DNA from: Spirochaetota bacterium
Lineage (GTDB): Bacteria > Spirochaetota > Spirochaetia > Treponematales > Rectinemataceae
Assembly: GCA_026398595.1 (NCBI GenBank)
Contig: JAPLSO010000015.1
Coordinates: 10,584 to 74,583, forward strand
Reading direction: 5' to 3'
Length of the DNA: 64,000 nt
Shown one piece after another: positions 4,838 through 16,768 of this stretch (position 1 is the stretch's first letter; each line of letters starts with the position of its first letter). The notes beneath the pieces are model-generated. The model ran no database searches, was not told where the DNA came from, and saw only the letters and a list, made by a program, of their open reading frames with translations. Position numbers and translations under genes: made by a program.

Positions 4838-5320
4838 TCAGGCGATCAGGTCGGCAAGTCCGGCTCCACACATCCCGATGAGGTCTTGAGGCCGGAGGAA
4901 GATCTGGAGCCCGCGCCTTCCCGCGCTTACGGAGATCGTGTCGAAGAGGAGAATTGTTTCGTCAAAGAAGGTCGCTAAGGCGTGTTTCATGCCGAGGGGG
5001 GAACAGCCGCCGCGGATATAGCCCGTCAGGCCCTCGAGTTCCCTTAAAGGGAGAAGGGAGGCTGACTTGTCTTTGGCTGCCTTGGCCGCTTTCTTCAGGT
5101 CTATTTCACAGGAGCCGGGGATGACGCAGACGAAGGGGCCCGTTCTTTCTCCGACGAGGACGATGGTCTTGAAGACCCGGTTGGGGTCGAGGCCGAGACT
5201 TTTAGCCGCGTGGAGAGCCGAGAGGTCGGATTCGTTCACCTCATAGCTCAACACTTCGAATTCGATGTCCGCGGCCTCGAGGAGGCGCATGACATTGGTC
5301 TTCTCCCTGGTGCCGCTCAT
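4838..5320 (-). CDS. YbaK/EbsC-type aminoacyl-tRNA deacylase
   Basis: A 160-residue, full-length member of the YbaK/EbsC editing family, which hydrolyses mischarged tRNA (typically Cys-tRNA-Pro) in the cytoplasm. The family pattern is visible from residue 6 on: the N-terminal helix (NVMRLLEAADIEFEVLSYE), FKTIVLV near 50, CVIPGSCEIDLKKAAKA near 65-81, and the Gly-rich loop GYIRGGCSPLGMK near 99-112. The last is the hallmark of the YbaK fold. Its start overlaps the stop of the preceding MocA-like gene by four bases, so the two are co-translated. It is the last gene before the carA leader. The exact tRNA substrate cannot be read from the sequence. Confidence 0.9.
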   Translation of the reverse strand: MSGTREKTNVMRLLEAADIEFEVLSYEVNESDLSALHAAKSLGLDPNRVFKTIVLVGERTGPFVCVIPGSCEIDLKKAAKAAKDKSASLLPLRELEGLTGYIRGGCSPLGMKHALATFFDETILLFDTISVSAGRRGLQIFLRPQDLIGMCGAGLADLIA

Positions 5321-5976: not shown

Positions 5977-7407
5977 TCAGCCCTTCCGGCCGCGTCCGAG
6001 CCCTGTCTGGGCTTCGGCGATGAATCGCTCGAGCCTGGCCAGTTCCTCTTTTGTCCGCCTGGGTGCCGGGCCTCCGGCCTGGTCCCTCCGGGCGACGCAG
6101 GCAACAGGATCGAGGTAGGCCTTGAACCCGGGGACATCGAATCCTGGGCCGGCGAAGGCGGGATGGGCAGCCGCGATCTCGGAAGGCCCGAGGTCAGGCA
6201 GTCGCTTCCCCGAGGCGATGCAGAGGGACACGAGCTCCTTGGACGCTTGGTAGGCGGTTCTGAAGGGAATGCCCTCAAGCACGAGGTATTCGGCGACGTC
6301 TGTGGCCTCGAGGAAGCCTTCTTTTACGGAATCCCTGAGAGTTTCAACATCGGGCACGAGGGAGGAGACGAGGACGGCAAAGGCCTTGAGGCAGCCCGAG
6401 ATCGTGTCCTCGAGGTCGAAGAACAGTTCCTTGTCCTCCTGGAGGTCCCGGTCGTAGGCGTAGGGGAGGCCTTTCTGGAGGACGAGGAGGGCCTGCAGTC
6501 CCCCGAATATCCGCGCCGATTTGCCCCGTATCAGTTCAGCAGGGTCGGGGTTGCGCTTCTGGGGCATGATGGAGGAGCCCGTGGACGCGGCGTCGGTCAA
6601 GCCCATGAACGCGTACTCCGTCGATGTCCAGAGCACGATGTCCTCGCAGGCTCGCGACAAATGCATGGCGATGATCGAGCAGGCCGCGGCGTAGTCCACG
6701 CAAGCGTCGCGATCGGCCACGGCGTCCATCGTATTCCGCGAGGGGCGGGCGAAGCCCAGGGCTTTAGCCGTGGCTTCCCTGTCCGTGGGCAGGCCCGAAC
6801 CGGCGAGGGCTCCTGAGCCCAGAGGGCATTCATCGGCACGCTTCCCGCCGTCGGCGAGGCGACTTGCGTCCCGCTCGAGAGCCGCGGCCCAGGCAAGGAG
6901 ATGATGGGCTAAAGTGACCGGCTGGGCGCGCTGGAGGTGGGTGTAACCTGGCATGATTGTCCCGGTATGGTTTTTCGCCAGAGCCAGGACGGCATTGAGG
7001 GCGTCGAGGAGGAGGCCTTGAGTCGACGCGAAGGCCCTGAGGATGTGAAGCCTGAAGGCCACGGCGACCTGGTCGTTTCGGCTGCGTCCTGCGTGGACGG
7101 CCTTGCCCGCCTCGCCCAGCCTTTTCGTCAGCTCGGCCTCGATAAAGGAATGGATGTCCTCGCTGTCGGGGTCGACCGCAAGGCTTCCGGCCTCGAACTC
7201 GGCCAACATCTTCCCGAGTTCGGCTGCTATCGCCGTGGCCTCGGCCTCAGGGAGGATCCCCATCTCGCCCAGCATGGATGCGTGGGCTATCGAGCACTCG
7301 AGGTCCTCGGGAAAAAGCCGCGAGTCCACGGGGAGGGAGGAGAGGAAGGCCTCGACATCGGGATGGAGTCCCGAACCCGATCCGGCCTTTTGCCATAGTT
7401 TTGCCAT
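5977..7407 (-). CDS. argH: Argininosuccinate lyase
   Basis: Splits argininosuccinate into arginine and fumarate, the last step of arginine synthesis. The 476-residue chain has the family landmarks in order: HAGRSRNDQ near 105-113, GYTHLQRAQP near 154-163 (catalytic His157), and the fumarase/aspartase signature GSSIMPQKRNPD at 277-288 with the mobile catalytic serine, then QEDKELFFD. The C-terminal tail is a little longer than usual. It follows argG, but an intrinsic terminator lies between the two, so argH is reached by read-through or an unseen promoter. The start MAKLWQKAG gives the expected N-terminus. Confidence 0.96.
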   Translation of the reverse strand: MAKLWQKAGSGSGLHPDVEAFLSSLPVDSRLFPEDLECSIAHASMLGEMGILPEAEATAIAAELGKMLAEFEAGSLAVDPDSEDIHSFIEAELTKRLGEAGKAVHAGRSRNDQVAVAFRLHILRAFASTQGLLLDALNAVLALAKNHTGTIMPGYTHLQRAQPVTLAHHLLAWAAALERDASRLADGGKRADECPLGSGALAGSGLPTDREATAKALGFARPSRNTMDAVADRDACVDYAAACSIIAMHLSRACEDIVLWTSTEYAFMGLTDAASTGSSIMPQKRNPDPAELIRGKSARIFGGLQALLVLQKGLPYAYDRDLQEDKELFFDLEDTISGCLKAFAVLVSSLVPDVETLRDSVKEGFLEATDVAEYLVLEGIPFRTAYQASKELVSLCIASGKRLPDLGPSEIAAAHPAFAGPGFDVPGFKAYLDPVACVARRDQAGGPAPRRTKEELARLERFIAEAQTGLGRGRKG

Positions 7408-7422
7408 AGGAACCTTCCAATT

Positions 7423-7453
7423 AAAAAACCGGGGAGGCTTGAGGCGCCTCCCC
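7423..7453 (-). terminator. Intrinsic terminator between argG and argH
   Basis: On the minus strand GGGGAGGC (7446-7453) pairs perfectly with GCCTCCCC (7431-7438) around a seven-base loop, followed by GG and six T residues. It sits 16 bases before the argH start and would lower argH expression relative to argG unless relieved. Confidence 0.85.
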
Positions 7454-7486
7454 GTCTTGTTCCGAAGTCCCGGTCTCCCGGATCGT

Positions 7487-8764
7487 TCAGTCGCCCGAAG
7501 ATGCAGTATAGCTGGAGTTGCCGGGCTTTACCACATCGGGGCCCGAAGCCGTACCGTGGGAGGCCAGCCGGGCATTGAGACGGGCCCTGACCTTGGTGGG
7601 CAAGCCGAAGAGATTGATGAAGCCCGTCGAATCTTTATGGGAGAAGAGGGGGCCAGTCGTGAAGCTCGCGAGGCTGGCGTCATAGAGGGAATAGGGGGAG
7701 GTGGCGCCGGCCGAGAGGATGGAGCCCTTGTAGAGCTTGACCCTCACCGTGCCCGTAACGACTTCTTGAGTGGAATCGATGAAGGCGCGCAGGGCTGAGC
7801 AGAGTGGGGAGAACCACTCGCCTTCGTAGAGGATCTCGGCGAAACGCTGGGCAACCGTCATCTTGAAGGAGAGGGTCTTCTTGTCCAGGCAGAGCTGTTC
7901 GAGCTTGTCATGGGCCTCCATGATGATGGCTCCGCCCGGAGTCTCGTAAACGCCCCGCGACTTCATGCCGACGACCCTGTTCTCGACCATGTCGACGATT
8001 CCCACGCCATGGGCTCCGCCGATCTTGTTGAGCTTCTTGACGATTTCGAGCGGGCCCAGCTTCTCGCCGTTCACGGCGACAGGGACGCCCTTCTCGAAGG
8101 TGATTAAGACATACTCCGCCTTGTCCGGGGCCTTCTCGGGGGGGACGGTCATTTTGAGCATGCCCTCGAACTTGGGCTCGTTCGCGGGATCCTCGAGGTC
8201 GAGGCCCTCGTGGCTTATATGCCAGAGGTTGTCGTCGCGGGAATAGGAGTCGGACTTCTTCATGGGGATGGGGATGTTGCGCTTCTCGAGAAACTCGATC
8301 TCCTCGTCGCGGCTTGCAATATCCCAGATCCTCCAGGGGGCTATCACTTCCATCTCCGGGGCGAAAGCCTTGACCCCCAGCTCAAAGCGGACCTGGTCAT
8401 TGCCCTTGCCCGTGCAGCCATGGGCGACGGCATCGGCGCCTTCGGCCAGAGCTACCTCGGCGAGGCCCTTGGCGAGGAGAGGACGGGCGGCGGAGGTGCC
8501 GAGGAGGTACTTCTTCTCGTAGGGGCTTCCCGCCTTGACGAGGGACCAGAGATACTCGGTGACGAATACTTCCTTCTGGTCGAGCTTGATGAACTTGGTG
8601 GCGCCCGAGGCCAGGGCGCGTTTTTCCATAGCCTTCCAGTCGGCTTCTTGGCCGACGTCGCCGCAGGCGGCTACGACTTCGCAGTCGTAGTTTTCCTTGA
8701 GCCAGGGGACGATGACGGTGGTATCGAGGCCGCCTGAATACGCGAGCACGATCTTCTTTTTCAT
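7487..8764 (-). CDS. argG: Argininosuccinate synthase
   Basis: Joins citrulline and aspartate with ATP to give argininosuccinate. The N-type ATP-pyrophosphatase P-loop AYSGGLDTT is at residues 8-16. HGCTGKGNDQVRFEL and GVYETPGG are the other family signatures. Two starts are possible: an ATG at 8785 would add seven residues, but AAGGAG lies between the two and is correctly spaced only for the ATG at 8764, which gives the usual MKKKIVLAYSGG. The C-terminal 60 residues are longer and more variable than in most bacterial ArgG. A promoter with an overlapping palindrome lies about 215 bases upstream, and a perfect terminator follows. Confidence 0.96.
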   Translation of the reverse strand: MKKKIVLAYSGGLDTTVIVPWLKENYDCEVVAACGDVGQEADWKAMEKRALASGATKFIKLDQKEVFVTEYLWSLVKAGSPYEKKYLLGTSAARPLLAKGLAEVALAEGADAVAHGCTGKGNDQVRFELGVKAFAPEMEVIAPWRIWDIASRDEEIEFLEKRNIPIPMKKSDSYSRDDNLWHISHEGLDLEDPANEPKFEGMLKMTVPPEKAPDKAEYVLITFEKGVPVAVNGEKLGPLEIVKKLNKIGGAHGVGIVDMVENRVVGMKSRGVYETPGGAIIMEAHDKLEQLCLDKKTLSFKMTVAQRFAEILYEGEWFSPLCSALRAFIDSTQEVVTGTVRVKLYKGSILSAGATSPYSLYDASLASFTTGPLFSHKDSTGFINLFGLPTKVRARLNARLASHGTASGPDVVKPGNSSYTASSGD

Positions 8765-8871
8765 GGATAACTCCTTGGCAGACAATGGCGGCCGAAAGCG
8801 GCCGCGGCGGGGAGGCAGGTATGACGTAAGCCGTCCCTTGCCTATATCGGGAAGCCGTCTTTAGCGGCTAC

Positions 8872-9197: not shown

Positions 9198-9890
9198 TCA
9201 TCCCTCCAGGTCAGTTCCCCGTTTCAACCTCTCCTTCTCCCTGATGTTCCTGATGAAATCCTCGGCGTATTTCCTCGCTATGTCCTTGCACCCGAGTCCG
9301 AAAGCCAAGGCGAGAGCGAGGGCAGCCGCGGCGCAGAGGAGGAGGAATATAGTGCTGACGATAGTCTGCCCCATGCCGAGCTGTTCCAGGGCCATCGTCG
9401 CCACGACGACGAAGCCTAGGGTCTTAAGCCCCTTCCCTATCACGACGGGATTGTGGATGGCCGCGTTCCTGGCGATGGTGATGAAAAAGTTCGAGAGAAA
9501 CGTGACCACCACGACGCCGATTATCACGATGATCCCCGCGGCCATTGTCCTGGGAAAGGCGGAGGCCATCCAGAGCGAGATGGATTCGGATGCGCCCGAA
9601 TCGAGCCTGGCGACGGTATTCGACAGGACGAGGATCATCAGGAACCAGTAGAGCAGTATCCCGAAGAGCCTGGACGGCGAATGGCTGACATTCCCCTTTT
9701 TGAGGAAGCCCGATATACCCGTCTTCTCGCAGATATAATCGAAGCGAAGAAGGGTGAGGATTCTGGGGGCCAGGAATCTGGCCAGCCTGGCGGCTATCCA
9801 TCCCAGGATGAAGATGAGGATGGCGCCCGCGATTGCCGGGAGAGAATCGAAGAATCCGCGTACCGATTCGATGATTTCCGAAAAGTCCAT
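9198..9890 (-). CDS. Small membrane protein of the MscS-related conserved-TM-helix family
   Basis: A 230-residue integral membrane protein with hydrophobic spans near residues 15-40, 78-95, 110-140 and 155-190. The segment AGAILIFILGWIAARLARFLAPRIL splits into the pattern of the conserved TM helix found repeated in MscS-type channel relatives. The long Ala/Leu/Gly-rich helix near 178-195, ending AFGLGCKDIARKYAEDF, resembles the pore-lining helix and following turn of MscS. The large cytoplasmic beta domain of MscS is absent. It starts 28 bases after the opine-dehydrogenase-like gene, so it may export or sense something linked to that cluster; this is inference. Confidence 0.7.
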   Translation of the reverse strand: MDFSEIIESVRGFFDSLPAIAGAILIFILGWIAARLARFLAPRILTLLRFDYICEKTGISGFLKKGNVSHSPSRLFGILLYWFLMILVLSNTVARLDSGASESISLWMASAFPRTMAAGIIVIIGVVVVTFLSNFFITIARNAAIHNPVVIGKGLKTLGFVVVATMALEQLGMGQTIVSTIFLLLCAAAALALALAFGLGCKDIARKYAEDFIRNIREKERLKRGTDLEG

Positions 9891-9918
9891 GTATCCTCCT
9901 CCGAGTGCCGAAGCGGCG

Positions 9919-11070
9919 CTAGGCGATCCCTTCGGTCACGAGCCTGTGTATCCGTTCCACGGACATCCCTTTTATGCCAAGAGTCTCGACCGTCCTGCCG
10001 CAGGCTCGGTAGTCGGTCGCGTTCATCATGCCTGCCAGGTCAATGATCATATCGATGGTAGGCGTCCCCACGCTCAGCATCTCCCCGATGGAGGACATGG
10101 GTACGAGACTCATGGGCACATCCTCCCATACATAGCGGTGATTGATCGTCGCGGGAGCCTTTATGCCCGCGTAGCCCGTCGTCGCCCTGATGGCTGAGCA
10201 GAGGTCCTCGCCCGGCGAATCGTAGGTGAGATAGAGCCATTCGCGGGCGGAGACTGTCCGTATCCCCAAAGCCCTGGCCACGGCCAGGCGTTCGTCGTCG
10301 ATCTTCTGCAGGACACGGGCGACGGAGGGCGAGATGCCCTGCAGGTAGTACTCAAAATCGCCCCCTGTCGATTCTATCCACCCGGCGTTGAGAAGAGTCA
10401 GGGCGGGATGGAAGACGGCGCCTATGTTCTCGAGGCTCGTAGCGAGCACGTTGGAGCCGGCCGTGAACTCTGGATAAGCCTGGTTCAGCACTCCCAGGAT
10501 GTCCGGGGTCAGGTAGGACGGAAGAGCGCTCACCGGCACTCCGTTCTTGATCCTGTAGATATGTCCGCGATGATGATCGATCATCCTCGAGGCGTAAATG
10601 AAGGTCTGGGCTTCAACGATAACGGGAAGGGTGGCCGCGCCCTCCCTAGAAAGGCATGCCCTGAATTCCAGGGCCCCTCCCGTCCTGCCAGGGTTCAGGA
10701 CGACCACCTGGCCATCCGCGAGGAAGGGCGCCATGGCGGAAGCCAGGGGATAATGAGCCGTCGAAGGTGTGACGATCATAATGACGTCGGCCCCTTCCAC
10801 GGCCGCCTGGATCGAGGAAGTCGCCAGCTTCACCGGACCGAAGCCCTCGATTTCCCCTTCGAGTTCGACTCCTTTATACCAGCGGACCGCGTTGAGATGC
10901 TCGTCCGTCCTGTTGTAAAGCCTCACCTCGAAGCCCATGAAGCCAAGGTGTCCCGCCATGGAGAGGCCGCCGTTGCCGGCGCCCATGACACACCATACAG
11001 CCTTCTTTTCCTTGGCGCGTACCTGCGAAAGCCTCTCGCCCACTTTTTTCCAGTCAGCGCGATCCGACAT
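9919..11070 (-). CDS. Octopine/nopaline dehydrogenase-family oxidoreductase
   Basis: A 383-residue NAD(P)-dependent enzyme. The Rossmann motif GAGNGGLSMAGHLG lies near residues 30-43. LNPGRTGGALEF near 125-136 and the C-terminal opine-dehydrogenase domain follow, with the His/Asp region near 225-320 (GAVFHPALTLLNAG, YAGIKAPATINHRY). Opine dehydrogenases reduce the imine between an amino acid and a 2-oxoacid; the real substrates here are unknown. It overlaps the B12-binding gene by 17 bases and so is translationally coupled. Together with the ATP-grasp gene the trio suggests a dedicated route for making or breaking an unusual amino-acid derivative. Confidence 0.85.
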   Translation of the reverse strand: MSDRADWKKVGERLSQVRAKEKKAVWCVMGAGNGGLSMAGHLGFMGFEVRLYNRTDEHLNAVRWYKGVELEGEIEGFGPVKLATSSIQAAVEGADVIMIVTPSTAHYPLASAMAPFLADGQVVVLNPGRTGGALEFRACLSREGAATLPVIVEAQTFIYASRMIDHHRGHIYRIKNGVPVSALPSYLTPDILGVLNQAYPEFTAGSNVLATSLENIGAVFHPALTLLNAGWIESTGGDFEYYLQGISPSVARVLQKIDDERLAVARALGIRTVSAREWLYLTYDSPGEDLCSAIRATTGYAGIKAPATINHRYVWEDVPMSLVPMSSIGEMLSVGTPTIDMIIDLAGMMNATDYRACGRTVETLGIKGMSVERIHRLVTEGIA

Positions 11071-12949
11071 CTTTACCTCCTTGCCTCGGGATCCTGGCGA
11101 GGCGACTGGCCATGGCCTCGATCCTCTCTTCGACCCTCAGAGGAGTTCCGTCCAACCTCACGGCGGCGACGCCGCCCGAGACTATCCTCGTCGGAATAGC
11201 TGCGGCCTTGAACTCATCCCTGCAGAACTCCAGCCAGGGCAGGGCGAACATTCCCGAGGCGAGCATGGCATAAAGCCCGAAGGGCGAGTACGTGTCGGGG
11301 ATCAGCAGTTCGGCCGCTTTGATTAGTTTCACCGCGTCACGGTACAGTGACTGCTCCCTAACCGAGATCTCGGGATTCCTCACCATTCCCTCCATGAATC
11401 CTTCTTTTTTCAGGCGCCGGTACTCAGACAGGGCCCAGCGCGTGAGACGTATGCTCTCCTCGATCACGGGCGGGTCGGCCAGCCTGGAAGCCTCACAGTA
11501 GCTCACCACGTGGATTACCTGCGGGCTGGAGGAATCCTCCGGTTCGATGTCGTCCATGAGAGCGGTGACAGCCGCCAGCTGAGCCTTGGCTTTCTCCAGG
11601 TCGGGGGAGAAATAGTCCAGCCCGCCGCGAGGCTGGAGATGGACCCTGAAATCCGGGCTTTCAAGGCTCCGGACGAGACAGAGGAGGACCCTTGTCTTGG
11701 CCAGGTCCTGGATTCCCCAGGTGTATTTCGGTGTATTGAGCATGGTCTGGAGGATCAGGTCGCGGATACCCAGACGCTTGGCGGCCACGGCGGCTACGTA
11801 GCCCGAAACGACATAGCTGAGATCGTCCGCGCCTCGGAAGGCGAAATGATGAGGCACATTGGGTTCGAGGGGCTTGCCTGTCGAGGCGATGTACCGGATC
11901 GTCTCGAAATGCTCCTTCAGGTTCGCAAGGACGTCGTTGGGACCGCGGCCGTCCAGCCTGCAGAACCACCAGAAAGAGAGGGCATGCCAGGCTATGTCGA
12001 TGGTCTTTTCGTACATCCTCGCCAGTTCGGGCACTTTCTTGGTCCCTGCATAGGCGCGCACGAAAAGGGGCCGGCAGGTCTGCCACAGAAAGGCGAACTC
12101 TTCCGCTGTCGCCAAAGGAACCCCTCCCCCGTTCAGCTTTCCCTCCCAATCCTCGCCGAAGTTGGACTGGGTGAGTTGGGATGTACCTATCGAGAGGATA
12201 TCGAGGAGGCCACCGGATGCGAGACTCCGTGCCCAGTCCCCAAAGAGCCTGACCGCTTCCTTCCTGTCGGCGAGATAGGGCCCCGCATGAGCCCTCATCA
12301 GGGGCGGCAGGCCCTTGGCTTTTCCATCGGCTATCCTGTCGGTCACCTTCTCTCCCCGCAGACCGAACCGCAGGCTAGATGAACGGTCCACCGGCTTCAC
12401 GGACAGGTATTCGCGCGACCGCACGAGACCTTCGCCGAATGAAAGCCGCGCCGAATCGTACTTTAAGCCCGGCGACAGCGATTGCGGGACGAGGTTCTCC
12501 GGAACGCCCAGTCTCTCGAGTGTTTCCTGGATCGTTTCATCGCCGCGGAAGACGCCCGCGAGTTCGGGGAATCTGCGCTCGGCCTCGTCACAGGCTTCAG
12601 GCAATCCCGCGAAAAAGACCGCCCTCACCTTCCCGCCCTGGATCCTTGTGAGCCTCTCCCTGGAAAGAAAATCCTTAAGGGTTCCGAAGATTCGGAGGGC
12701 ATCGGAGGGATCCAGCCTGTAACTGAATCCCAGGACGCTCAAGGACGAGTTGGCGATCCAGGCCTTAAGATTTGCCCCTCCTTCTCCCCTGGCCAGCGCC
12801 TCAAGATCGGCTCCGATACCTTCGTCGGCGATGAGGGTCCGGATGCCGCAATCGCCGAGCACCCTGGAGAAGGACAGAATGCCGAGGCTGTGGACGTCGG
12901 CGGGGGGGTGTATGAGTCCGAAGACATCCCGAGCTTCTATCCTGAACAC
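11054..12949 (-). CDS. Cobalamin-binding protein with mutase-like C-terminal region
   Basis: A 631-residue protein I cannot assign to a known enzyme. The N-terminal 120 residues look like a B12-binding Rossmann domain: D18-x-H20-x-x-G23 is the base-off/His-on motif, with S71-x-L73 and a Gly near 115 in the later positions. Residues about 200-470 form an alpha/beta region that reminds me of the TIM-barrel subunits of glutamate or methylaspartate-type mutases, but I cannot prove this. No radical-SAM cysteines are seen. It lies between an ATP-grasp ligase (18 bases upstream) and an opine-dehydrogenase-like gene (overlapping), so an amino-acid substrate is likely. Confidence 0.65.
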   Translation of the reverse strand: MFRIEARDVFGLIHPPADVHSLGILSFSRVLGDCGIRTLIADEGIGADLEALARGEGGANLKAWIANSSLSVLGFSYRLDPSDALRIFGTLKDFLSRERLTRIQGGKVRAVFFAGLPEACDEAERRFPELAGVFRGDETIQETLERLGVPENLVPQSLSPGLKYDSARLSFGEGLVRSREYLSVKPVDRSSSLRFGLRGEKVTDRIADGKAKGLPPLMRAHAGPYLADRKEAVRLFGDWARSLASGGLLDILSIGTSQLTQSNFGEDWEGKLNGGGVPLATAEEFAFLWQTCRPLFVRAYAGTKKVPELARMYEKTIDIAWHALSFWWFCRLDGRGPNDVLANLKEHFETIRYIASTGKPLEPNVPHHFAFRGADDLSYVVSGYVAAVAAKRLGIRDLILQTMLNTPKYTWGIQDLAKTRVLLCLVRSLESPDFRVHLQPRGGLDYFSPDLEKAKAQLAAVTALMDDIEPEDSSSPQVIHVVSYCEASRLADPPVIEESIRLTRWALSEYRRLKKEGFMEGMVRNPEISVREQSLYRDAVKLIKAAELLIPDTYSPFGLYAMLASGMFALPWLEFCRDEFKAAAIPTRIVSGGVAAVRLDGTPLRVEERIEAMASRLARIPRQGGKDVGSR

Positions 12950-12967
12950 GTTTCCTCCTTTATGTCT

Positions 12968-14092
12968 TCAGAGCCGCCGGTCGAGCCATTCCGGGATGAG
13001 GGAAGACAGCCCCTCGGGCAGAAAGGCATCGAAGCCGCCTTCCCTGCCGGCGCGGCGCCAAGCGGTCACGATGACAGCCGCCAGGTACTGCTCCTCCGAA
13101 AGTCCGGCCTCCGCCATGCAGGAGCCGAACCAAGGGTCGGGGATCATCGGCTGGCCGTTGACCTCGATGCCCCAGAGTTTTCGGTTCGCATGGATTATGT
13201 CGCAGCGCGAATAGTCCTGGACGCCTAGAGACGAAAAAATCCTAAAGGCGAGGGCCTCGGCTTCCTTTCTCAACCCCGAGTCGTCGATGGGCAGCGCGAC
13301 TGCCCTGCCTTCATCCTTGTCCCCGGTAGTGATGACTTTCGTGGATCCGCTGGAGTTGAGCCTAATCTCCACCGGCAGGCAGAGCATGCCCTTCCCGTTG
13401 CCGACACAGGCGCAGGTAATCTCACGGAAGTCCGGACAGTCTCCCAGATATTCTTCGATCAGCACCTGTCTAAAATCCGGGGCGAGTCTTCCTATGGCCA
13501 GCCGAAGCCCCTCCATATCCCGGACGACCGAATCTGGATTTATCCCCCTGGAATTTCCGCCGTCCGCTGGCTTAACGATGCAGGGAAATGGAGGGATGAG
13601 GGAACCATCAAGGAGTTCCGGATCGGATTGAGTCGAACAGCTGTAGAATGCCGGGGTACGTATGCCGTCCAGCATCCATCTTCGTTTCAAGGAAGGCTTC
13701 GAGAGGGCAAGATCCAGTACTATGGCCGGAGATCCCGCGAAAGGGACACCCCGGGATTCCAGCCAGGCGTGCACGTTCACAAAAGACGCCGGATTCGAAC
13801 CAGTATCGGGCAGATGATCGGGGGCGCAAAAGACAAGGTCGGGCATGTATTGCGCGACGAAAGCGGCAAGATCGCCGATGTTGGCGACGCATGCAAGGGA
13901 TGCATTAACGCCAGCGGAACGGAGCATTGCGTCGAATCGGTCGAGACGCGATGAGGCCTCGGGCAGAGCATAGACTATCGATATTCTTCGGGGTGTCGCT
14001 TTTCGGCGGACATCCAATTCCTTACACCTCCCATGATCATAAGTCTTCACCTTCAGTCTATCACAGCATCCCGTTTGTGCCTCGCTTTTCAT
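12968..14092 (-). CDS. D-Ala-D-Ala ligase-like ATP-grasp enzyme
   Basis: About 374 residues if the ATG at 14092 is used. A TTG at 14017 has a better ribosome site (GGGAGG nine bases before it) and gives a protein starting DVRRKATPRRISIVYA, so the true start may be there. The ATP-grasp fold is visible from KRRWMLDGIRTPAFY near 140, through IVKPADGGNSRG near 175 (the Lys and Gly-rich loop), to WGIEVNGQPMIPDPW near 317, where Glu and Asn bind Mg-ATP. Such enzymes join a carboxylate to an amine through an acyl phosphate. The context (B12 protein, opine dehydrogenase) argues against cell-wall D-Ala-D-Ala synthesis. First gene of its cluster. Confidence 0.8.
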   Translation of the reverse strand: MKSEAQTGCCDRLKVKTYDHGRCKELDVRRKATPRRISIVYALPEASSRLDRFDAMLRSAGVNASLACVANIGDLAAFVAQYMPDLVFCAPDHLPDTGSNPASFVNVHAWLESRGVPFAGSPAIVLDLALSKPSLKRRWMLDGIRTPAFYSCSTQSDPELLDGSLIPPFPCIVKPADGGNSRGINPDSVVRDMEGLRLAIGRLAPDFRQVLIEEYLGDCPDFREITCACVGNGKGMLCLPVEIRLNSSGSTKVITTGDKDEGRAVALPIDDSGLRKEAEALAFRIFSSLGVQDYSRCDIIHANRKLWGIEVNGQPMIPDPWFGSCMAEAGLSEEQYLAAVIVTAWRRAGREGGFDAFLPEGLSSLIPEWLDRRL

Positions 14093-14158
14093 AAAATTTC
14101 CTGAAAGTCATCCGGACCTGAAGGTCAGAGGCGCGGATCGCTTTACTGGCTCGGTCTT

Positions 14159-15094
14159 ATGTTATATCGTACTTATCATATGTTTTTAGTCGACAGGCCG
14201 GATGGTAAAAAAGTGCGGGGGCGACAGGCCCTGAACGCTGTCATGCCCTACATGATGCCAGGGCGGAACCAGTCCGCCGTGTATTACGAAAAGGACATCG
14301 ATCTCGAGAATGCCCTGCGCCACGTACGGGCCAAGAACCTATCGGCCGGGGAAGACGCCTCCGAAGGCGGATCTGAGGATCGATATTCCCTCTTTGGCCT
14401 CGTCCTCGCCGCAGCCGTGCGTACGATAGCCCTAAAGCCCCAGCTCAACCGTTTCATCCACGGACACGCCCTCTACCAGCGCGACCGGATCGTCATATCC
14501 TTCATCGTCAAGCAGAAGCTCACCGAGGAAGCGCCTGAGGGTAGCGCCAAGATATTCTTCGAACCCGGGGACGACCTCGAGATCGTGTCCCGGAAGGTGA
14601 ACGAAGCCATAGCCTACGTGAGGCTCATGGGCGAAGGCGGCGAGGGCGAGCGGATTGCCAAGACAGCCCATGCGATCCCCGGGGCAAAGGCCCTCATCAT
14701 AGGAGCCTATAGGCTCCTGGACAGGCTCAACCTCGCTCCCTGGGCGCTCATAAAGACGGATCCCCTGTACGCGACGGCATATTTCGCCAATCTGGGAAGC
14801 CTCGGGCTGGACACGCCTTACCATCACCTCTACGAGTGGGGAAACGCGAGTCTCTTCATGGTGATGGGAAAATTGCAGCAGGCCGACGGCCGCCAGGGTC
14901 GTTTCGGCCCCGGACATCACTTCGTCAATTTCAAGGTAACGCTGGACGAGCGGATAGCCGACGGCCTGTATTTCGCCCGATCCGCCTCGATTTTTTCACG
15001 CCTCATCGCCCGGCCGGAACTCCTCGAAGCGGACCTTGAGGAAGCGCGGATTCAGATCATGGGTGAAGCTGAAAACAAGGAAGGCAGAAACTAG
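14159..15094 (+). CDS. Orphan 2-oxoacid dehydrogenase E2-like acyltransferase domain protein
   Basis: A 311-residue protein consisting only of the CAT-superfamily catalytic domain of E2 acyltransferases; there is no lipoyl or E3-binding domain. The core pattern is visible from MPYMMPGRNQSAVYYEKDID through ALKPQLNRFIHG to TLDERIADGLYFA near 285. In canonical E2 enzymes that last motif is DHRxxDG with a catalytic His; here Glu replaces the His, which I recall as usual in this stand-alone family. No E1 or E3 genes lie nearby, so it is not part of a classical complex and its acyl acceptor is unknown. It ends overlapping the convergent FmdB gene by four bases. Confidence 0.75.
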   Translation: MLYRTYHMFLVDRPDGKKVRGRQALNAVMPYMMPGRNQSAVYYEKDIDLENALRHVRAKNLSAGEDASEGGSEDRYSLFGLVLAAAVRTIALKPQLNRFIHGHALYQRDRIVISFIVKQKLTEEAPEGSAKIFFEPGDDLEIVSRKVNEAIAYVRLMGEGGEGERIAKTAHAIPGAKALIIGAYRLLDRLNLAPWALIKTDPLYATAYFANLGSLGLDTPYHHLYEWGNASLFMVMGKLQQADGRQGRFGPGHHFVNFKVTLDERIADGLYFARSASIFSRLIARPELLEADLEEARIQIMGEAENKEGRN

Positions 15095-15408
15095 GCGCTC
15101 TCTTTCTTCGCGGCCGGAGCTGACGCCGGGCTTTCCGGGACAGCCGCTGGCAGGCTTTCCGAAGCTTCGGCCTTGGCTTCCTCGCCGCGGCGTGTCTTGG
15201 ACTTCGAAAGGGAGGCAGCGGCCGAGGTCTTCTTCGAATCGGTGATGTAGAAGCCTGAGCCCTTGAATATAACGCCCATCCCGCCGCCGATCACCCGCCG
15301 CACGCTTCCGCCACAGGCAGGACAGACCCTTATGGGATCATCGGACATGGATTGGAACTTCTCGAACCTGTGCTGACAGGAACGACACTCGTATTCATAG
15401 GTCGGCAT
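15091..15408 (-). CDS. FmdB-family zinc-ribbon protein
   Basis: A 105-residue protein starting MPTYEYECRSCQHRFEKFQS, the standard FmdB start, with GAGGT eight bases before the ATG. A single zinc ribbon uses two CxxC pairs (CRSC and CPAC) within the first 40 residues, followed by the family's Gly-rich IGGGMGVIFKGSGFY. After residue 60 the chain turns into a low-complexity Ala/Ser/Lys/Glu/Pro tail, probably disordered. The family was named for a possible regulator of formamidase genes, but most members have no known role. A promoter-like pair lies upstream. Confidence 0.88.
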   Translation of the reverse strand: MPTYEYECRSCQHRFEKFQSMSDDPIRVCPACGGSVRRVIGGGMGVIFKGSGFYITDSKKTSAAASLSKSKTRRGEEAKAEASESLPAAVPESPASAPAAKKESA

Positions 15409-15435
15409 GACGCAATACCTCGATTCCACAGAGAG

Positions 15436-15463
15436 AGGATAAGGTGATTTTCATACAATGTAA
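15436..15463 (-). promoter_or_regulatory. Probable promoter of the FmdB-family gene
   Basis: On the minus strand TTACAT (15458-15463), 16 bases, then TATCCT (15436-15441), about 28 bases before the start at 15408. Both hexamers are moderate matches. Confidence 0.4.
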
Positions 15464-15532
15464 CCGTATGGTCGAAAAAGGTAAAGTGGAGGGGGAGGCC
15501 GCTCGGAGGCCGTTTCCCCTTTCCCGCCTGTC

Positions 15533-16768
15533 TCAGCGGCCCAGGACTCCCAGCTTCCTGCCCACCTTCTCGAAGGCCCGGACGGCGCGCTCGATCTGTT
15601 CGGGGCTATGGGCGGCCGACAGCTGCACTCGGATCCGCGCCTTCCCCTTCGGGACGACGGGGAAGGAGAAGCCGACCACGTAGATGCCCTCGGCGAGGAG
15701 GGCGTCGGCCATGTCATGGGCGAGTTTCTCGTCGTAGAGCATGACGGGGCAGATGGGGTGGACGCCGGGCCGCAGATCGAAACCCGCCACGACCATCAGC
15801 TTCCTGAAGAGGGCCGCGTTCGACTCGAGCCTGTCTTTAAGCTCGGTCGAGGACTTAAGGAGTTCGAGGGCGGCGAGGGTTCCGCCCACGATGGAAGGGG
15901 CGAGGCTGTTGGAGAAGAGGTAGGGCCTTGCCTTCTGACGCAGGTACTCGACGACCTCGGCCTTGGAGGCTATCACCCCGCCCGAGGCGCCGCCCAGGGC
16001 CTTTCCGAAGGTCGTGGTGATGATGTCCACCCTCCCGCCTACCCCGCAGTGCTCCCAGGTCCCCCTCCCCCGTTTGCCCATGAAGCCCGTGGCGTGGGAG
16101 TCGTCGACCATGACGAGGGCGTCGTATTTCTCAGCGAGGTCGCAGATCTCGGGAAGGCGGGCGATGTCCCCATCCATGGAGAAGACCCCATCCGTGGCTA
16201 TCATCCGTATCCGGGCGCCGAAAGACTCCTTGAGACAGCGTTCGAGGCCCTTAGCCGTCCTGTCCGTGTCGGGGTCGACTTCCTCGATATCCCGCATATC
16301 GGCGTGCTTGAAGACCCAGCGTTTGGCCTTGCAGAGCCGCACGCCGTCGATGATCGACGCGTGGTTGAGGCTGTCCGTGATGATGGCGCAGTCCTCGTCG
16401 AGGAGGGGCTCGAAGACGGCTCCGTTGGCATCGAAGCAGGAGGAGAAAAGGATGGCGTCCTCCATTCCCAGGAACTCGGCGGCCTTTTTCTCCAGGAGTT
16501 TATGCGGGCTTTGGGTGCCGCAGATGAAGCGTACCGAGGCGAGTCCATACCCCCAGTCCTCGAGGGCCTTGGCCGCCGCCGACTTCAGTAAGGGGCTGTC
16601 GGCCAAGCCGAGGTAGTTGTTGGCGCAGAAGTTGAGAACCTCGGACCCTCCCTCGACCGTGATAGCCGCGGACTGGGGTGTCGCTATGACGCGCTCGTCC
16701 TTATAGAGGCCCTCGGCCTTGATGGCCGCCAGCTTGCCGCTCAGTTCGGATTGGATCCCGGAATACAT
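15533..16768 (-). CDS. kbl: Glycine C-acetyltransferase (2-amino-3-ketobutyrate CoA ligase)
   Basis: A PLP enzyme that converts 2-amino-3-ketobutyrate and CoA to glycine and acetyl-CoA. The 411-residue chain aligns along its full length with Kbl: [15 protein letters not shown] near 45-59, [10 protein letters not shown] near 81-90, [14 protein letters not shown] near 216-229 (PLP-contacting Asp and His) and [14 protein letters not shown] with the PLP lysine at 256. No threonine dehydrogenase is adjacent, so threonine breakdown would need a distant tdh; relatives such as 8-amino-7-oxononanoate synthase are less likely given the close match. GGAGGGAG lies just before the start. It is the last gene of a minus-strand run that begins near 18.6 kb. 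Confidence 0.94.

Follow-up and report, generated by a model that had tools for sequence, protein, structure and literature searches.

A B12-binding protein with a predicted glutamate-mutase-like fold is paired with an opine dehydrogenase in many bacterial lineages

A B12-binding protein that by its predicted fold resembles glutamate mutase, though in one chain, is encoded beside an opine dehydrogenase (OpDH) in bacteria of many lineages. The pair makes up the second and third genes of a four-gene operon in a stretch of 64,000 nucleotides from a Spirochaetota genome (the window, below). Gene linkage and co-occurrence show the pair to be a unit, patchily distributed. Our best reading, on which we are evenly divided, is that it is a two-enzyme biosynthetic module in which a single-chain AdoCbl mutase and OpDH would yield an N-(1-carboxyalkyl) amino acid that is then amidated in an ATP-dependent manner.

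The operon is on the minus strand throughout. It begins with an ATP-grasp ligase whose C-terminal half is D-Ala-D-Ala-ligase-like (12968..14092; 374 aa), a putative accessory amide-bond-forming enzyme, followed after 18 bases by the B12 protein (11054..12949; 631 aa, GTG start), which overlaps by 17 bases the gene for OpDH, of the CENDH type (9919..11070; 383 aa), and after a 28-base gap there is a small membrane protein with an MscS-type conserved TM helix (9198..9890; 230 aa). The initial annotation had this right: all four ORFs are where it placed them, with no gap or overlap above 28 bases, the ligase has its EVNGQP site, and the 631-residue protein carries the B12 motif D18-x-H20-x-x-G23 exactly. 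The operon promoter is probably carried by the 66-base divergent intergenic region (14093..14158) between the ATP-grasp start and a plus-strand ORF at 14159; a sigma-70 promoter scan of this gap gave no convincing match. An Rfam search of the window found no match, and so no cobalamin riboswitch in it.

How general is this arrangement? When 84,980 species genomes were scanned using nothing but the B12 protein as query, 80 loci were retained, with identities of 43-65%; they belong to Spirochaetota, Bacteroidota, Bacillota, Armatimonadota, Raymondbacteria, KSB1, PVC and other lineages, the family being often found in rumen and gut Bacteroidales; a search of plasmids gave no match. With three loci added from a Spirochaetota search the set comes to 83, of which L039 and L107 share one sequence, making the number of distinct loci one lower. 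Of the 83, 78 have OpDH close to the B12 gene, nearly always within 2.5 kb. Four of the five loci lacking it (L024, L070, L079 and L081) end at a contig edge, and the fifth, L073, is a true exception, a full-length locus with no OpDH, which counts against our best explanation. The distance matrices of the two proteins have a correlation of 0.76, to which shared phylogeny contributes, and 0 of 1000 permutations gave one as high. Among 296 Spirochaetota genomes only five have the B12 family, and exactly these five have OpDH matches below E 1e-140; in five others, where the B12 protein has no match, the OpDH match is weaker (E 1e-51 to 1e-67). Rare co-occurrence elsewhere, an outcome that the initial annotation had named as fatal to its proposal, is thus not what genomes display. 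Its set of four is nevertheless to be trimmed: the B12 protein and OpDH form a core, to which the other two do not belong, the ATP-grasp ligase being exchangeable (for another ATP-grasp family, for AsnB, or for nothing) and the MscS-like protein confined to one branch.

The B12 protein has no family match in Pfam or NCBIfam and no sequence match in the PDB, where searches with the protein or its profile returned chance matches only. Its AlphaFold2 model, built with 64 homologues (pLDDT 92.1, pTM 0.91), is more informative. The first-ranked Foldseek match in the PDB is glutamate mutase E (1cb7_B, E 2.2e-12, TMt 0.64), a second structure of that enzyme, 6h9e_B, matches at E 1.3e-11, and next comes the alpha chain of lysine 5,6-aminomutase (1xrs_A, E 5.7e-9). 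A short match of 139 columns to a 2-hydroxyisobutyryl-CoA mutase chain (4r3u_D, TMt 0.74) probably spans the cobalamin domain of the model. That domain (12500..12949, minus strand; approximately residues 1-150) has D18, H20, G23 and S76 invariant in 65 sequences of the family and G105-G106 nearly so, with Arg at position 78 where the SxL motif has Leu. PF02310 (B12-binding) is detected in 27 of the 64 homologues, at best with E 3.2e-4, and exceeds its curated cut-off (E 1.6e-9) in a divergent 541-aa paralogue from genome G163, which sits in an operon of the order B12 - AsnB - OpDH - MscS. Fused to this domain is a barrel like that of glutamate mutase E (11405..12472, minus strand; approximately residues 160-515). 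The barrel comparison that the initial annotation had proposed thus comes out in its favour, the model folding like MutE joined to a B12-binding domain, and its fear that a cobalamin pocket might be lacking from the predicted structure was not borne out.

Fold is one matter and substrate another. MutE holds glutamate in an arginine claw of R66, R100 and R149, plus E171, which contacts the free amino group. An hhalign comparison of the B12 family with MutE runs collinear over most of the barrel (169-618 against 46-451), but taken by itself the match is weak (P 0.02, and 0.005 once the paralogue is added). This weak alignment pairs R298 (VRAYAGTK) with MutE R149 (QARHGTPD) and brings the segment of E486 next to MutE E330 (KTPHEA); R219 (RAHAGPY) corresponds to R66 (QPRAGV) by motif and position. 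Arg219, Arg298 and Glu486, invariant across the family, the G163 paralogue included, are on this basis probably the counterparts of MutE Arg66, Arg149 and Glu330. At the place of R100 the weak alignment puts the invariant Q258 and Q261, and in the same weak profile alignment no Glu counterpart of E171 was found; three more arginines, R335, R372 and R441, are invariant. With no obvious counterpart of R100 and E171 the substrate may differ from free glutamate. The unmatched R100 and E171 and the weak MutE profile match, like the absence of MutL noted below, count against our best explanation.

These same residues lend some appeal to an order of events the reverse of ours, in which the OpDH reaction precedes, and it is the opine, an N-substituted amino acid, whose skeleton the B12 enzyme then rearranges. 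The apparent loss of the amine-contacting glutamate together with the keeping of R219, R298, R335, R372 and R441 would suit a polycarboxylate of larger size that has no free amine. Yet the residue mapping depends on the weak profile alignment, and no mutase of MutE-like fold is known to act on an opine; we regard the reversed order as unlikely.

The second-ranked fold raises a different possibility. Lysine 5,6- and ornithine 4,5-aminomutases (1xrs, 8t0v) are AdoCbl enzymes of amino acids that also combine a cobalamin domain with a barrel, and, given the Foldseek rank of the lysine 5,6-aminomutase alpha chain, one could imagine a PLP-dependent B12 aminomutase that shifts an amino group ahead of opine formation. 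The PLP lysine of ornithine aminomutase, Lys629, is located in the cobalamin domain (PMC4256349). The B12 family has no conserved equivalent: across residues 1-200 of the 65 sequences no Lys column is 90% conserved, the best-conserved Lys of the cobalamin domain is K14, present in 43 of 65, and the barrel K359 is absent from the G163 paralogue. Lacking a conserved lysine for the PLP link in that domain, the B12 protein is improbable as a PLP aminomutase.

To return to a mutase of the glutamate mutase kind, the source genome encodes a PduO-type adenosyltransferase, and AdoCbl can therefore be made from cobalamin. There is no MutL reactivase in that genome, a search of it for PF06368 (Met_asp_mut_E) was negative, and neither the B12 protein singly nor its family had a Pfam match to PF06368 at E 0.1. 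Because of this failure, the missing MutL and the partial matching of substrate residues, we do not class the protein as a glutamate mutase. It is like MutS/MutE or GlmS/GlmE (1cb7, 6h9e) in its best fold match and in having a DxHxxG cobalamin domain and a barrel; it is unlike them in being a single polypeptide that starts with the cobalamin domain, in its identity of about 15%, and in its partnership with an opine dehydrogenase rather than with fermentation genes.

For that partner, the octopine/nopaline dehydrogenase fold noticed at the outset is backed by PF02317 (Octopine_DH; E 1.8e-48, above the cut-off), and the model (pLDDT 95.6) has the Octopine_DH helical domain together with an NAD-binding domain. 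The nearest solved structure is that of CENDH, the N-(1-D-carboxylethyl)-L-norvaline dehydrogenase of Arthrobacter (1bg6; phmmer E 3.2e-68), on which the model superposes with TM 0.95, rmsd 1.6 and 36% identity. H221, R312 and D317 do not vary among 38 sequences and align with the catalytic His, Arg and Asp of CENDH. OpDH should be functional as an opine dehydrogenase. CENDH, however, has no known B12 partner. Staphylopine, pseudopaline and yersinopine operons, which make exported opines, likewise place an opine dehydrogenase in a small biosynthetic operon, but OpDH is structurally far from the dehydrogenases of these metallophores (TM 0.6-0.7) and the operon in the window has neither a nicotianamine-synthase-like nor a racemase gene.

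The two remaining genes are more loosely attached. The ATP-grasp protein passes PF07478 (Dala_Dala_lig_C) at E 4.6e-14, with 52.9 bits against a curated cut-off of 24, and its top PDB sequence match is D-Ala-D-Ala ligase B (8evy, E 1.8e-13), while it is far under the NCBIfam cut-offs set for true D-Ala-D-Ala ligases. A ligase of this type adjoins the pair in eight loci (L004-L007, L013, L031, L081 and L106). In the nearest relatives, L002 and L003, the order is B12 - OpDH - MscS and no ATP-grasp gene adjoins the pair, a further point against our best explanation. Most loci have an ATP-grasp or AsnB gene within 9 kb. The membrane protein has been named generously: PF05552 (MS_channel_1st_1; E 5.5e-10) is found in two stretches, so that the conserved TM-helix repeat behind the label ‘MscS-like’ stands, but this helix is all that was found of an MscS channel, which would have a beta domain and a pore helix; Pfam detects no MscS beta domain, and the protein reaches 56 of the 100 bits set by NCBIfam for NF033912. 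It is a possible pore for the product of the module.

Two genomic settings can be distinguished. Of the 83 loci 16, mostly of Spirochaetota and PVC, have the MscS-like gene by the pair; around these 16 none of the glycan genes named below occurs, and several have a ligase of the window type or AsnB. In Bacteroidota the pair lies in surface-polysaccharide clusters. An ATP-grasp_4 gene, of a different family from that of the window, is near the pair in 35 loci, of Bacteroidota and a few others, in company with DegT aminotransferases (29), glycosyltransferases (25 and 15), sugar transferases (13) and Wzx flippases (11). Mapping the labels on the B12 tree takes two changes for MscS, where shuffling gives 13.0, and nine for glycan, against 25.4 expected; the two settings follow phylogeny. 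In Bacillota there is often neither a ligase nor a glycan gene nearby.

The MscS branch invites comparison with the NAGGN operon (asnO-ngg, PA3459-PA3461), where an AsnB-type amidotransferase and an amide ligase also deal with an amino-acid conjugate, although that operon has no opine dehydrogenase and no B12 enzyme. NAGGN, N-acetylglutaminylglutamine amide, is amidated by AsnO once Ngg has formed the peptide bond, and the operon gives protection under osmotic stress (PMC8070244). By analogy the amidated opine of this branch could be a NAGGN-like osmolyte and the MscS-like protein its pressure-release pore, and the recurrence of AsnB or ATP-grasp and an MscS-type protein beside the pair is in keeping with that. 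The protein has no recognised gating domain, though, and the identical core pair serves in glycan clusters; a compatible solute seems quite unlikely.

Might the module instead break opines down, with OpDH oxidatively cleaving an opine taken from the environment and the mutase readying the freed amino acid for degradation? Glutamate mutase is fermentative in clostridia, the opine dehydrogenase reaction is reversible, and the ligase-free, glycan-free surroundings of many Bacillota loci would be congenial to such a role. Against it, no methylaspartate ammonia-lyase, MutL or opine importer was found to recur beside the pair, and the glycan clusters of Bacteroidota and the ATP-grasp or AsnB genes of most loci fit synthesis. 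We think catabolism improbable. The initial annotation had left open whether an unusual amino-acid conjugate is made, exported or degraded; making is the best reading, and degradation is disfavoured by the surface-glycan setting in Bacteroidota.

The synthetic direction is favoured by those clusters and by the spending of ATP by the ligases, and the steps of biosynthesis can be envisaged as follows. The 631-aa chain would combine a cobalamin domain in the role of MutS or GlmS with a barrel in that of MutE or GlmE and, as an AdoCbl-dependent mutase using radical chemistry, would rearrange the carbon skeleton of an acidic amino acid, the working guess being glutamate to 3-methylaspartate. OpDH would then reductively join the amino group to a 2-oxo acid, probably pyruvate, and the ATP-grasp enzyme, or elsewhere another ATP-grasp or an AsnB-type amidotransferase, would convert a carboxylate of the resulting opine to an amide or peptide bond. 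The acid would probably end up, in Bacteroidota, on an amino sugar of a surface polysaccharide; for Spirochaetota and PVC a free small molecule is the probable product, one that would cross the membrane via the MscS-like protein. Of this scheme the gene linkage, the folds, the conservation of catalytic and cofactor residues and the exchange of partners are shown; the radical chemistry, its direction, the order of the steps, substrate, product and transport are inferred. A broader proposition, to which we give slightly less than even credence, is that the B12 proteins are a widespread class of single-chain AdoCbl mutases, distinct from glutamate mutase, that act solely together with an opine dehydrogenase, rearranging an opine or its amino-acid half to give branched N-carboxyalkyl amino acids that are borne on surface glycans in gut Bacteroidales and are free amides in spirochaetes.

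There are few AdoCbl carbon-skeleton mutases. A family present in many phyla for which neither Pfam nor NCBIfam has a model would, if the proposal is true, widen the range of uses known for vitamin B12. Such a family would also tie B12 supply to the structure of surface glycans, which shapes recognition by phages and by the immune system, and it predicts a new acyl group or opine. No description of the pair was found in open-licence papers, and one in a subscription journal is possible; the opine-dehydrogenase papers examined in the open-licence literature do not mention cobalamin. Because the pairing is fixed, two purified proteins would suffice for a direct test of the chemistry.

A minor observation concerns argG and argH, the next genes downstream of the operon. 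They begin after a gap of 412 bases and so probably lie outside the four-gene unit. As candidate parts of the module they were set aside, being linked to it, besides in the window, only in the related spirochaete loci L002, L003 and L005, in two of which other genes intervene.

After the pair formed by the B12 gene and the opine dehydrogenase gene, two of the compared loci (L010, 5329-5961, and L014, 9883-10515) carry a putative cyclase, assigned to PF04199 by a Pfam search of the L010 copy, which occupies the place of the amide ligase found in other loci. In L018, where the pair lies within a surface-polysaccharide cluster, HpcH/HpaI-aldolase-like and mesaconyl-CoA-hydratase-like genes are also present (14362-15646) and may hint at C5-dicarboxylate chemistry.

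A YbaK-like tRNA-editing deacylase gene follows the B12 gene, at a distance of ~1.2-1.3 kb, in four Bacillota loci (L068, L071, L074 and L075), and the window has a YbaK homologue at 4838-5320, downstream of argH. If an unusual amino acid were wrongly loaded onto tRNA, such an enzyme could remove it, although the arrangement may be coincidence. argG and argH come after the module in the window (5977-8785), as they do in three related spirochaete loci, an arrangement that is probably local synteny.

One Spirochaetota genome, G087, encodes a 639-aa glutamate mutase E subunit (L097, 1024-2940) whose gene adjoins MutL, the reactivase gene, and a glycyl-radical-activase-like gene. Its B12 domain is C-terminal, the reverse of the domain order in the window B12 protein.
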